In this document: piece by piece, positions 22,126 through 27,372 of the stretch
Layout of the letters: each line of letters starts with the position of its first letter
Numbering within the stretch: the first letter of the stretch is position 1
Source: Geobacteraceae bacterium
GTDB lineage: Bacteria; Desulfobacterota; Desulfuromonadia; Geobacterales; Pseudopelobacteraceae
Assembly (NCBI GenBank): GCA_013336525.1
Contig: JAAXTM010000001.1
Span: forward strand, 620,001 to 684,000
Direction of reading: 5' to 3'
DNA: 64,000 bases
The notes under the pieces: generated by a model
What the model saw: the letters and a program-made list of their open reading frames with translations, nothing else
Databases searched by the model: none
What the model was told of the DNA's origin: nothing
Made by a program: the position numbers and the translations under genes

Positions 22126-24564
22126 TTATTTTCTTGTTTTTTTGGCCTTCTTCTTTTTCAGATTATCTTTGACCCGCTTTTCAGCCCTTGCAATCAAAAG
22201 CCGATGACTCCCCTCACCCTGCCCTTCAGCTGGAATACGCTGGATGTAACTGCCATCAGGCTGCATATCCCACGCAGAACGTTGATCCGCCAGATGTGTT
22301 TCAAATATCGTGCGAATTTCTTTGGTCAACTCAGGCGGCTCTACCGGACAGAGGATCTCAACCCGAGCCTCAAGATTTCGCTTCATGGCATCAGCAGAAG
22401 CGATAAAATATTCTTCAGCACCGCCATTGCGGAAATAGTAGATGCGGGCATGCTCCAGAAACCTCCCGACAACACTGACCACCCTGACATTGTCAGAAAG
22501 CCCGGCAATTCCAGGGCGCAGACGACAGGTGTCACGAACAATCAGATCAATTTTGACACCTGCCATTGAGGCACGGTATAGCGCCCTGACTACATCTCCA
22601 TCCTCCAGGGCGTTAATTTTAAACTGAATCAAACCGCCACCGGCAGACTGGTGCACATTTATTTCACGCTCAATTTTATCAAGCAGCGCTTTTTTCAGCA
22701 TCCGTGGAGCAAGTGCGAGCTTTGAATATTTACGTTTGAGCATGAAGCCGGTAGTTAAAAAATTGAACAGTTCCGTAACATCTTCGGCGATTACCTGATC
22801 ACATGTCAATATACCGACATCACTGTACAACCGGGCGGTATCAGCATGGTAATTGCCGGTGCCGAGGTGCAGATAGCGCCGCAGGCCGTTGTAATCCTGA
22901 CGCACAACCATAATGACCTTGCAGTGCGTCTTTAAGCCGACGACACCGTACGTGACGTGCACCCCGGCTTCTTCCATTCGTTCCGCGAGACTGATATTGG
23001 TCGCCTCGTCAAACCGGGCCTTCAACTCGACAACGACGGCGACCTGTTTACCGTTATGCGCAGCCAGAATCAGTGCATCAATAATGCGGCTCTGGCGCGA
23101 GGTGCGATAAAGAGTCATCTTGATGCCGCGAACTTTGGGATCGGTCGCCGCCTCACGCAAAAAGCGTTCGACTGAAGTTGAAAAGGATTCATAAGGGTGC
23201 TGCAGCAGAATCGCACCAGCATCGCGAATTATATGAAAAATATTGCGCGTCGTTTGCAATTTCGGGTGGTCTACCGGATAGTGTGGAGGATCATGTAACC
23301 GGGCAAAGTCGAGTCGAGTCAACTCAAAGAGGTCACGCATCGCAAGCAGGCCTGGAACTTCAAACACGTCAGTCGCTTCATCCAGTTCAAGTTCTGCCGC
23401 TAGGCGACCGCGATGTACCGGATCCATGCCGGCACCGATCTCAAGCCGTACGATCGGGGCAAACTTGCGTTCTTTAAGCTCAGATTCGATCATCGCCATC
23501 AGATCGTCCGCCTCTTCTTCATCCTGTTCGGTATTGGCGTTTCTGGTAACCCGGAAAAGTTCGCACGATACGATTTCCATACCCGGAAAAAGCATATCCA
23601 GATTGTTCATCATGACCTCTTCAAGCCTGATGAAATGTTCCCCTTTGCCGACCCTGATAAATCGGGGGGTACCGGCATTAACCGGCACCTTGATCCGTAC
23701 CAGTGAATTATGTTTGGCTTTTGGATAACGGAGTGCCACCAAAAGATTAAGCGACAGATTTGATATAAACGGAAAAGGATGGGCGGGGTCTATAGATTGC
23801 GGCGTCAGAAGCGGGAAAATATTCGTATAGTAAAACTCCCTCAGCAGTTTTTTTTCTTTGGGAGTCAACTCGTCATATTGCTCAATCAAAATGTTTTTTT
23901 CTTCCAGCAGAGTGCAGATTTCACAAAACGACTTCTCCTTGCGTGCCTCGATATCACGGACTTCGGCATAACATTCCGTTACCTGTTGGCGTGCAGTACG
24001 GCCATCGAGGGACAACTCCCTCATCCCGGCCCCGATCTGCTGTTTCAGGCCGCCGATACGCTTCATAAAGAACTCATCTAGGTTGCCACTGACAATTGCA
24101 ATGAATTTAAGCCGTTCCAGCAAAGGTGTGCGCTGGTCCTCAGCTTCATGCAACACACGACGGTTGAACGACAGCCATGTCAACTCACGGTTCAGGAACC
24201 ACTGGCTGTCATGCAGATCATAATGTTCAGATCCATTGGCTGAAATATCACTCTTTGCTTTCGCCGCTGCATTCGCATTTGTAAACACAAGTTTTGAGGA
24301 TTTGGATTTGCTGTTTTTCGCCTGATTGCCAGATGACTTAACAGCTTTTGTATTAGGCACTTTCAACTTGGGACTTTTCTGCTTAGCAACTTTCGATTTG
24401 GAGCTCTTGGACTTATCGTCCTTTGTCTTAACTGAATTTGATTTAAGCAGCTTTTGTTTATCATTTTTCTTGGCGTTGGTCACATTAACATCGGCAGACA
24501 ACAAACTGCTGCCAACGACATCAATTGGTGATGAAAACGACTCAATATTTTCTTGTTCTGGCAC
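22126..24564 (-). CDS. ppk1: Polyphosphate kinase 1 with long Lys/Ser-rich N-terminal extension
   Basis: 812 residues. The PPK1 core begins near residue 118 (DSQWFLNRELTWLSFNRRVL) and includes FIAIVSGNLDEFFMKRIGG, MTLYRTSRQSRI and the histidine region HLGTGNYHADTARLYSDVG, whose His is autophosphorylated when polyphosphate is made from ATP. Two features are unusual: about 115 residues of Lys/Ser-rich low-complexity sequence before the core, and a basic tail (LKKKKAKKTRK). Typical PPK1 is about 690-720 residues. It is monocistronic in view. The polar extension may bind polyphosphate or nucleic acid. Confidence 0.93.
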   Translation of the reverse strand: MPEQENIESFSSPIDVVGSSLLSADVNVTNAKKNDKQKLLKSNSVKTKDDKSKSSKSKVAKQKSPKLKVPNTKAVKSSGNQAKNSKSKSSKLVFTNANAAAKAKSDISANGSEHYDLHDSQWFLNRELTWLSFNRRVLHEAEDQRTPLLERLKFIAIVSGNLDEFFMKRIGGLKQQIGAGMRELSLDGRTARQQVTECYAEVRDIEARKEKSFCEICTLLEEKNILIEQYDELTPKEKKLLREFYYTNIFPLLTPQSIDPAHPFPFISNLSLNLLVALRYPKAKHNSLVRIKVPVNAGTPRFIRVGKGEHFIRLEEVMMNNLDMLFPGMEIVSCELFRVTRNANTEQDEEEADDLMAMIESELKERKFAPIVRLEIGAGMDPVHRGRLAAELELDEATDVFEVPGLLAMRDLFELTRLDFARLHDPPHYPVDHPKLQTTRNIFHIIRDAGAILLQHPYESFSTSVERFLREAATDPKVRGIKMTLYRTSRQSRIIDALILAAHNGKQVAVVVELKARFDEATNISLAERMEEAGVHVTYGVVGLKTHCKVIMVVRQDYNGLRRYLHLGTGNYHADTARLYSDVGILTCDQVIAEDVTELFNFLTTGFMLKRKYSKLALAPRMLKKALLDKIEREINVHQSAGGGLIQFKINALEDGDVVRALYRASMAGVKIDLIVRDTCRLRPGIAGLSDNVRVVSVVGRFLEHARIYYFRNGGAEEYFIASADAMKRNLEARVEILCPVEPPELTKEIRTIFETHLADQRSAWDMQPDGSYIQRIPAEGQGEGSHRLLIARAEKRVKDNLKKKKAKKTRK

Positions 24565-24715
24565 CGGAAAGCTCCCTTACATTGGTAGTTGATAGATTAA
24601 TACTACATTGTTTATGCTCAACCGCAAGCGGTTGATATAAAAAACACAAAATGCTTGTCAATTACTTATACAGTCTTCATAATTCTGAAAAGAAGGTCCT
24701 ATTAAGGAGGATACA

Positions 24716-25282
24716 ATTAAATCCTTAGCCCTTTATATTGTTGGAATAATTTGTTTATTGTCTTGCTATAGCTTCAACTCTGAAGGGGCTGGTAAAAAAA
24801 TGCCCGATTACAAAATCACTAAAAACTGTAATTTCGAGGATGTCTACCCTGGTTTCTCGGCCAATTCGTGTTCTCCCGAAATCATTGTTCCTACCTTCGA
24901 AGGATTGCTTATCAATACGCCTCCAAAAGTGCCTCTTTCTGCCGCATTGTCAGTGAAAGTGGCTTGCAGCTTTGCTTTTTCACTAAGAAGGGATTTAGGG
25001 GTCTTGGAACGCGTCGAAAACGAAATAGTTTTCACGGTTGTAGATAGGGAAACCAATATTACCTATTCCGGCAAGATGCCCAATATGGATCATTCTATCC
25101 CGAGTCCCGGCCGGTCAAAAAAAACATTACGGAGGGAAGAATTGCCCGATCAAATCATTGAAAGTTATGTCAATGTTGACTTGGTGAAAGTTGTCCGCAT
25201 GCAAAAAAAAACCGGTAGATATAAAGTATATGCAACAGTCTCGACTTTTAAATCCAATACCCTTGATTTTGAAGTGTACTAA
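24716..25282 (+). CDS. Small lipoprotein of unknown function, apparent ATT start
   Basis: 188 residues if translation starts at the ATT at 24716. A perfect AAGGAGG (24704-24710) lies 5 nt upstream of that ATT, and the frame from it reads KSLALYIVGIICLLSC, a full lipoprotein signal with lipobox LLSC. The first conventional start in frame is TTG at 24758, which has no RBS and would cut off the signal. The mature protein has two cysteines (KNC, NSC) and strand-like sequence ending STFKSNTLDFEVY. No family recognised. It lies alone between ppk1 (divergent) and the rep-like gene. Confidence 0.7.
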   Translation: MKSLALYIVGIICLLSCYSFNSEGAGKKMPDYKITKNCNFEDVYPGFSANSCSPEIIVPTFEGLLINTPPKVPLSAALSVKVACSFAFSLRRDLGVLERVENEIVFTVVDRETNITYSGKMPNMDHSIPSPGRSKKTLRREELPDQIIESYVNVDLVKVVRMQKKTGRYKVYATVSTFKSNTLDFEVY

Positions 25283-25368
25283 GGAGTCTGCCACAGGGAA
25301 GATATGTTAATTTAAATAAATTTATACAAAATTGCCTCCGTACCCCCCTCCGTGGTACACCTATAACC

Positions 25369-27372
25369 ATGAAAAAACTCAATCCACAACAACAACGCGC
25401 AGTCAACACGGTTGATGGCCCTTTGCTGCTCCTGGCCGGAGCCGGTTCCGGGAAGACCCAGGTAATTACCACTCGTATTGTCCATTTTTTGAAAGACCTG
25501 CACGTCCCGGCCGAGAATATCCTGGCGGTAACCTTTACCAACAAGGCCGCCCGCGAAATGAACGAGCGGGTGCTCGGCATGGCTGGATCAATTGCCAAAG
25601 GGATAGTAATCTCGACCTTCCACTCACTCGGAGTCCGTATCCTCCGCCGTGATATCCGCGCACTCGGCTTCAAGCCGAATTTCTCCATCTATTCCACCTC
25701 CGATCAGGCAGGCGTCATTCGTCAGGCCGTGCGCGAACGGGATATCGACCCGAAAAAGATAGATCCGGACCGGATTCTTTGGCACATCTCCGGACTGAAG
25801 AACCGCCTCATCGGACCAAAGGAGTTTACCCCGGACCGGAACGACCCCCTGGAAATCGCGGTTGCCGCCGTGTATCCCCGTTATCAGGAGTTGCTGAAAG
25901 GCTTTAACGCCATCGACTTCGATGACATCATCATGCTCTCCGTGCGCCTGCTGCAAACCACCCCGGCCATCCTCGCCCACTGGCAGGAGCACTTCCGGTA
26001 TATTATGGTTGACGAATATCAGGATACCAACGCCTCGCAATATCTGCTTATTTCGCTTCTTGCGAAAAAGCATGGCAACATCTGCGTCGTCGGCGATGAT
26101 GACCAGTCAATCTACGGCTGGCGCGGCGCGGAGGTGGAGAACATTCTCAATTTTGCCCAGGATCACCCAGGCTGTGTGACCATCAAACTGGAACAGAACT
26201 ACCGCTCCACTGGAGCAATTCTTGATGCCGCCAACAGCGTGATACGAAACAACACCGTGCGAACTGACAAAGCGCTCTGGACATCCGGCGGAAAAGGGCG
26301 TGAGATCGATCTGATTGTGGCTGACAGCGAGGAGGATGAAGCGGCAAAGGTCATAGAGCAGATCATGCTGGAGCAGTATCGTGAAAAGCTGCGCTGGGCG
26401 GATCTTGCAATCCTCTATCGTTCCAACGCGCAGAGTCGGGCTTTCGAGGAAAAGCTGCGCATGGAGCGTATCCCTTATGTGGTTATAGGCGGGCAACAGT
26501 TTTACGAGCGGAAAGAGGTCAAGGATGCCATCGCCTATCTTAAGGTGATCGACAATCCGAGCGATGAAGCCTCTTTGCTGCGCATCATCAACTTTCCCCG
26601 CCGTGGAATCGGCGACACGACCCTGATAAAGCTGAACCAGTGGTCGATGAATCATGACGTACCACTGTTTGAGACACTGGGGCGAGCGGGTGAAATTGAG
26701 GACCTTTCACCATCGTGCCGAAAAACGGTGATCGCCTTTCACTCCATGATGAAAGATGTCATCGCCGGTTTCAGTAATATAAACATGGGGGCGCAGGTCA
26801 ATGCCCTATTCAACCGCCTGCGCATTGAGGACGAACTGTATCGCACCTTGAACGACGCCAAACAGAGTCGCAAGCGGATTGAAAACATCGAGCAGGTAGT
26901 GAACTCACTGGCGGCTTACGAAGAACAGACACCACGGGCAAATCTGTCGGCATTCCTCGAACGGATCTCGCTTATGGATGAGGACAAACCGTCTGAAGAT
27001 GGCAAGGAGCATGGCACCAACGCCGTCACGCTGATGTCGCTGCACTCCAGCAAGGGGCTGGAATTCAGCCATGTCTGGCTGGTAGGGATGGAAGAAAATC
27101 TTCTGCCGCACAAACGCTCGATCGAAGAGGATCCGACCGTAGCCGAAGAGCGGCGTCTATGTTACGTCGGCATCACGCGGGCCAGAAAATACCTGACTAT
27201 CTCGCGATGCATGACTCGGCGCAAATATGGTGCGGTGGAGGGGCAAAAACCGAGCCGGTTTCTGGCCGAAATTCCGGAGCATCTGCTGAATGGTACAGCA
27301 GGAGGAGCAGAAGGTGAAACGGCTGAACCGGTAGACCTGGCTGCAGATTTTTTTGCACGGATGCTGGGGTAA
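25369..27372 (+). CDS. rep: ATP-dependent DNA helicase, Rep/UvrD family
   Basis: 667 residues, superfamily 1A helicase. Motifs in order: Q-motif LNPQQQRAV, Walker A AGAGSGKT (23-30), TFTNKAAREM, VDEYQDTN (Walker B), VGDDDQSIYGWRG, EQNYRST, LMSLHSSKGLEFSHVWLVG and CYVGITRARKYLTIS. Length and the sequence around each motif are closer to E. coli Rep (673 residues) than to UvrD/PcrA, which carry longer C-terminal tails. Likely clears proteins ahead of replication forks. No strong RBS is seen before the ATG. PcrA is the alternative name. Confidence 0.88.
   Translation: MKKLNPQQQRAVNTVDGPLLLLAGAGSGKTQVITTRIVHFLKDLHVPAENILAVTFTNKAAREMNERVLGMAGSIAKGIVISTFHSLGVRILRRDIRALGFKPNFSIYSTSDQAGVIRQAVRERDIDPKKIDPDRILWHISGLKNRLIGPKEFTPDRNDPLEIAVAAVYPRYQELLKGFNAIDFDDIIMLSVRLLQTTPAILAHWQEHFRYIMVDEYQDTNASQYLLISLLAKKHGNICVVGDDDQSIYGWRGAEVENILNFAQDHPGCVTIKLEQNYRSTGAILDAANSVIRNNTVRTDKALWTSGGKGREIDLIVADSEEDEAAKVIEQIMLEQYREKLRWADLAILYRSNAQSRAFEEKLRMERIPYVVIGGQQFYERKEVKDAIAYLKVIDNPSDEASLLRIINFPRRGIGDTTLIKLNQWSMNHDVPLFETLGRAGEIEDLSPSCRKTVIAFHSMMKDVIAGFSNINMGAQVNALFNRLRIEDELYRTLNDAKQSRKRIENIEQVVNSLAAYEEQTPRANLSAFLERISLMDEDKPSEDGKEHGTNAVTLMSLHSSKGLEFSHVWLVGMEENLLPHKRSIEEDPTVAEERRLCYVGITRARKYLTISRCMTRRKYGAVEGQKPSRFLAEIPEHLLNGTAGGAEGETAEPVDLAADFFARMLG

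Follow-up and report, generated by a model that had tools for sequence, protein, structure and literature searches.

A likely AUU start for an orphan, probably exported protein encoded between ppk and uvrD in a Geobacteraceae bacterium

Where does translation begin when a strong ribosome-binding site is followed by ATT instead of an ordinary start codon? A plus-strand open reading frame (24716..25282) raises this question in the window, the whole stretch of 64,000 nucleotides that was analysed. The frame lies between ppk and uvrD and comprises 188 codons, counting an ATT at its head, before TAA at 25280-25282. The reading that we favor, with moderate confidence, is that the frame encodes a small exported protein, acquired recently and made in low amounts by translation from AUU.

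An orphan gene in a variable interval

To judge whether the frame is a gene, we gave it a coding score based on hexamers, with 176 long ORFs from 464 kb of the organism's own genome as the training set. Read from ATT it scores +27.0, while the five alternative frames all fall between -135 and -41. One thousand letter shuffles of the same stretch gave a mean of -79 and a maximum of +3.6, and an open frame of at least 188 codons appeared in none of 2000 simulations of the region under a first-order Markov model. The score per codon, 0.14, lies near the 1% quantile of the genome's own genes, and GC by codon position is 0.42, 0.38 and 0.41, compared with 0.57, 0.40 and 0.51 in typical genes. The ORF is a real but foreign-looking gene.

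Searches with the protein yielded no family and no convincing homologue. There was no match in Pfam up to E 1 or in NCBIfam up to E 10; a PDB sequence search gave no family match (best E 0.72), and the best E in PHROGs was 0.042. A single-sequence AlphaFold2 model had a mean pLDDT of 38.4. Within the genus, the protein was found in its own genome only (1 of 39). At E ≤ 0.01, matches occurred in 5 of 395 genomes of a phylum sample and in 6 of 277 genomes of the class, the genome itself being counted in each (276 others in the class). These weak matches (E 0.002-0.009) were judged to be chance, as all were fragments, several were interrupted by stops, and none was a similarly placed ORF. Collections of genome contigs, viral contigs, plasmids and phages held no homologue.

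The surroundings of the gene were compared with 29 loci upstream of uvrD, taken from the 36 other genus genomes with a uvrD match. tblastn at E ≤ 1 detected no copy of the orphan gene in any of them. Of the 29 loci, 14 have ppk upstream of uvrD: in 10 the gap is about 100-195 bases, and in the remaining four (L008, L014, L019 and L026) other sequence intervenes. The other 15 loci carry different sequence or different genes within 1.5 kb, making the region upstream of uvrD variable across the genus (L008-L036). When the ppk-uvrD gap was compared by blastn with the 29 upstream regions, an AT-rich segment at 24638..25316 had no counterpart in the nearest relative: in L008, which has a UvrD 95% identical, the match is confined to 24568-24637 and 25317-25365, and the sequence in between differs. 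GC is 0.36-0.44 in the segment, 0.52-0.58 in uvrD and 0.481 across the 464 kb. Because only the flanks match in L008, the orphan gene, on this alignment, sits in a lineage-specific segment between conserved ppk-side and uvrD-side flanks. A search for direct or inverted repeats marking the ends of an insert returned only short, chance-like ones. In the genome contigs, the named organisms with the closest UvrD belong to the Desulfuromonadales (an uncultured member at 77% identity, Geotalea at 62%).

Two further features of the locus were observed. The ppk-uvrD slot that holds the orphan gene in the window's species is occupied in the nearest relative by a HesB/IscA-like gene (L008, 3689-3976 on the locus plus strand); this gene carries one in-frame TGA, probably encodes a selenoprotein, and has a similar frame in the gap of L010. 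In addition, the N-terminus of Ppk (window 24250-24560, minus strand) bears a Lys/Ser-rich, low-complexity extension of ~100 residues that varies among relatives.

Upstream of the gene, a sigma-70-like promoter (TTGTCA-17-CATAAT, 24655..24683, plus strand) matches the consensus at 10 of 12 positions and ends 33 bases 5' of the ATT. Sites of such quality number four in 951 bp, where 2.8 (sd 1.6) would be expected; the match is therefore suggestive only. An upstream ORF in another frame, from ATG 24651 to TAG 24726-24728, was considered for translational coupling and rejected, since its ATG lies just 5' of the predicted -35, and therefore off that transcript; no ribosome site was seen before it. 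RNA structure around the start was nothing special (z 0.68), and no Rfam element was found in 24000-26000.

The start site and the N-terminal signal

The start region is organized around a Shine-Dalgarno sequence, TAAGGAGG (24703..24710, plus strand), an 8-nt match with an aligned spacing of 5 to ATT. An exact pattern did not locate the 3' end of 16S rRNA in the draft genome, so the anti-Shine-Dalgarno sequence was assumed. As the preliminary description had stated, the core AAGGAGG (24704-24710) stands five nucleotides (ATACA) before the probable start codon, ATT 24716..24718, from which the frame stays open to its TAA. The frame itself opens after TGA 24686-24688, nine codons 5' of ATT (AAA GAA GGT CCT ATT AAG GAG GAT ACA). 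On reading the sequence, we found no in-frame ATG, GTG or TTG between that TGA and TTG 24758..24760 on the plus strand, and hence no canonical codon upstream of ATT. This TTG, the first canonical codon in frame, has no ribosome-binding site and falls inside the hydrophobic stretch, so that starting there would forfeit the signal, again as first described. The accompanying claim that ATT alone yields the full signal held for both downstream codons, but the list behind it was incomplete: an in-frame ATG at 24800..24802 (plus strand, residue 29), preceded by a weak AAGG at an aligned spacing of 10, had been left out, and the signal is lost from there too. The orphan ORF thus has, as expected of an AUU-type start, a non-NUG codon suitably spaced from a ribosome-binding site, and no canonical codon in frame from which the complete protein could be made.

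How often would such an arrangement arise by chance? AAGGAGG occurs 54 times in the 464 kb, counting both strands, which gives p ~3e-4 for one of six accepted spacings before any given codon. For a fitting AAGGAGG ahead of one or another of the 14 codons that run from ATT up to TTG 24758, p is ~0.005. Combining AAGGAGG with a generic signal-like N-terminus is by itself not rare: ~1.7 codons are expected by chance in the 464 kb and three were observed, at two sites, the second of which opens at a non-start codon (TTC or GTA). These odds are weaker than those of an earlier form of the test, whose loose lipobox, with L allowed at -2, had been chosen after LLSC was seen; the test was then redone with the generic signal rule.

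In a survey of start sites among 412 ORFs scored as genes in the 464 kb, three have a site of at least 7 nt placed 4-9 nt before an in-frame ATT, ATC or ATA. Two of the three have a canonical start at most two codons away on the same site, leaving the orphan ORF as the only one in which no canonical start shares the ribosome site. A looser survey had passed over it, since ATG 24800 and its weak site were accepted there as a canonical start; the stricter site was then used. Across the whole 3.5 Mb genome, AGGAGG-N4-9-ATTAA has five matches, of which, on reading, only the one at 24716 appears to stand at a gene start; the rest look internal or open short frames.

The predicted N-terminus, KSLALYIVGIICLLSC (24719..24766, plus strand), combines a positive n-region (K2) with a hydrophobic h-region (mean hydropathy 2.99 over 10 residues) and a candidate lipidated Cys17. 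The preliminary description saw here a complete lipoprotein signal. Its hydrophobic, signal-like character stands, while the lipobox is atypical: LLSC at residues 14-17, with L at -2 and Cys at -4, fails both the strict pattern, [LVI][ASTVI][GAS]C, and PROSITE PS00013, and matches only the loose form. Because the strict patterns fail, we describe the product as exported and lipoprotein-like and stop short of calling it a lipoprotein; it is probably a small protein of this kind, with 172 aa from Cys17.

The atypical lipobox also counts in favor of the idea that translation begins downstream, at ATG 24800 (160 residues) or TTG 24758 (174 residues), and makes a cytosolic protein. ATG is an ordinary start, and the AAGG before it lies at an aligned spacing of 10. 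The upstream features would then have to be accidents: an AAGGAGG at ideal spacing, at the chance level given above for the stretch, a hydrophobic signal-like stretch of a sort found at 0.5% of codons, and a frame that happens to open just 5' of the ribosome site. We give this explanation little credence. An error in the sequence or assembly, with ATG as the true codon, seems more improbable still. The genome is a draft in 28 contigs, but the frames of the nearby ppk, uvrD and chemotaxis genes are intact, and modern assemblies seldom contain isolated base errors. The sequence, the coding score and the start-site survey together support the earlier proposal that the intended start lies at 24716 and that the assembly reads ATT there. 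We consider this position very likely and, judging from the sequence, the use of AUU as the start likely.

A genuine ATT at the right position could also be a lesion. By this account, a G-to-T change at 24718 turned ATG AAA into ATT AAA in this strain and silenced or crippled the gene, which would be dispensable and only beginning to decay. A single base separates ATT AAA from ATG AAA. The genus apparently can do without this orphan, the codon bias of the gene is poor for its own genome, and in the searched genomes no homologue was found that would show the ATT to be conserved. The remaining frame, however, shows no damage. Of 1,683 single substitutions, 79 would create a stop, compared with about half a dozen that would destroy an ATG; the loss would therefore need to be a recent event that struck before any other. 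We regard a recent loss of the start as unlikely. Counting against the reading that we favor, AUG-to-AUU switches are very rare, at 1 of 61,358 ancestral AUG starts (PMC5622118), although annotation pipelines under-call AUU; the AT-rich composition of the gene, its low coding score per codon and the lack of any special RNA structure or Rfam element weigh on the same side.

Non-NUG starts in the genus and elsewhere

Initiation at AUN codons has a classical example in infC, which encodes IF3 and, in E. coli and others, starts at AUU, AUA or AUC, is conserved and is autoregulated. We located infC in 37 of the 39 genus genomes and read its start in 30 of those loci. All 30 have GGRGG followed by ATA GCA AAA CCG; in 20 there is no in-frame ATG, GTG or TTG upstream, and in 10 there is at least one. 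The genome's own infC (C11:685401-685610, minus strand; locus L071 of L045-L074) lies just outside the window. infC of the genus thus appears to start at ATA after GGRGG, which suggests that the lineage uses an AUN codon behind a strong ribosome site for initiation. A non-NUG start in that setting would therefore have a precedent in the genus. The literature searches on the subject turned up no paper on infC of this group.

The orphan ORF resembles infC in having an AUN codon that is set by a strong ribosome-binding site, without an in-frame canonical alternative. Unlike infC, it is unconserved and has no known link to IF3. The pcnB gene of E. coli also has an AUU start, which reportedly limits its translation (work attributed to Binns and Masters, 2002), but pcnB is a conserved housekeeping gene. 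An AUU start acting as a translational brake is already a known kind, with infC, pcnB and cvfC1 of Staphylococcus aureus as examples.

In S. aureus, cvfC1 starts at AUU, ccpN at AUA and infC at AUA, and AUU or AUA starts with extended ribosome sites yielded ~10% of AUG in fusions in poor medium (PMC13009471). cvfC1, like the orphan ORF, encodes a small protein behind a strong ribosome site and an AUU start; among staphylococci both that start and that ribosome site are conserved (PMC13009471), whereas no homologue of the orphan ORF was found. In Streptomyces, the GTC start of sigR serves as a brake and is repressed by IF3, which represses non-canonical starts; sigR shares the non-canonical start but has a different codon, is conserved and was tested experimentally (PMC5472188). 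AUU starts are also reported for RcsD-Hpt of Yersinia pestis, with a ribosome site (PMC10191623), and PncA of Borrelia burgdorferi (PMC13398362). A literature search on AUU starts and lipoproteins, which drew on partial texts, returned no report of a lipoprotein gene with an AUU start.

Translation from AUU and its meaning

How would the gene be expressed if AUU is used? In the reading we prefer, the gene, specific to its lineage and probably acquired, would be transcribed from a promoter of its own in the ppk-uvrD interval, and the near-perfect ribosome-binding site would put ribosomes on AUU. The codon would be decoded as fMet, with initiator tRNA starting there at reduced efficiency. The yield of the 188-residue protein would be low, perhaps near the ~10% of AUG that comparable S. 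aureus sites gave in poor medium (PMC13009471). The protein would then be exported by its N-terminal signal and perhaps lipidated at Cys17. Translation might also be sensitive to IF3.

A stronger proposal, for a genus whose infC itself appears to start at AUA, is that the AUU is a selected brake tying a newly acquired envelope protein to the level of IF3, with synthesis rising as IF3 becomes scarce; the weak codon would then be offset by the strong ribosome site. We consider such a regulatory role distinctly unlikely.

If AUU is used here, standard gene callers would cut the orphan gene to TTG or ATG and so misname its product cytosolic. If the ATT is a fresh mutation, the locus would illustrate an ordinary early step of gene loss. 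If AUU is used, the gene would add one more case to the few known bacterial AUU starts, and would argue for permitting AUN starts after strong ribosome sites when orphan secreted proteins are annotated.
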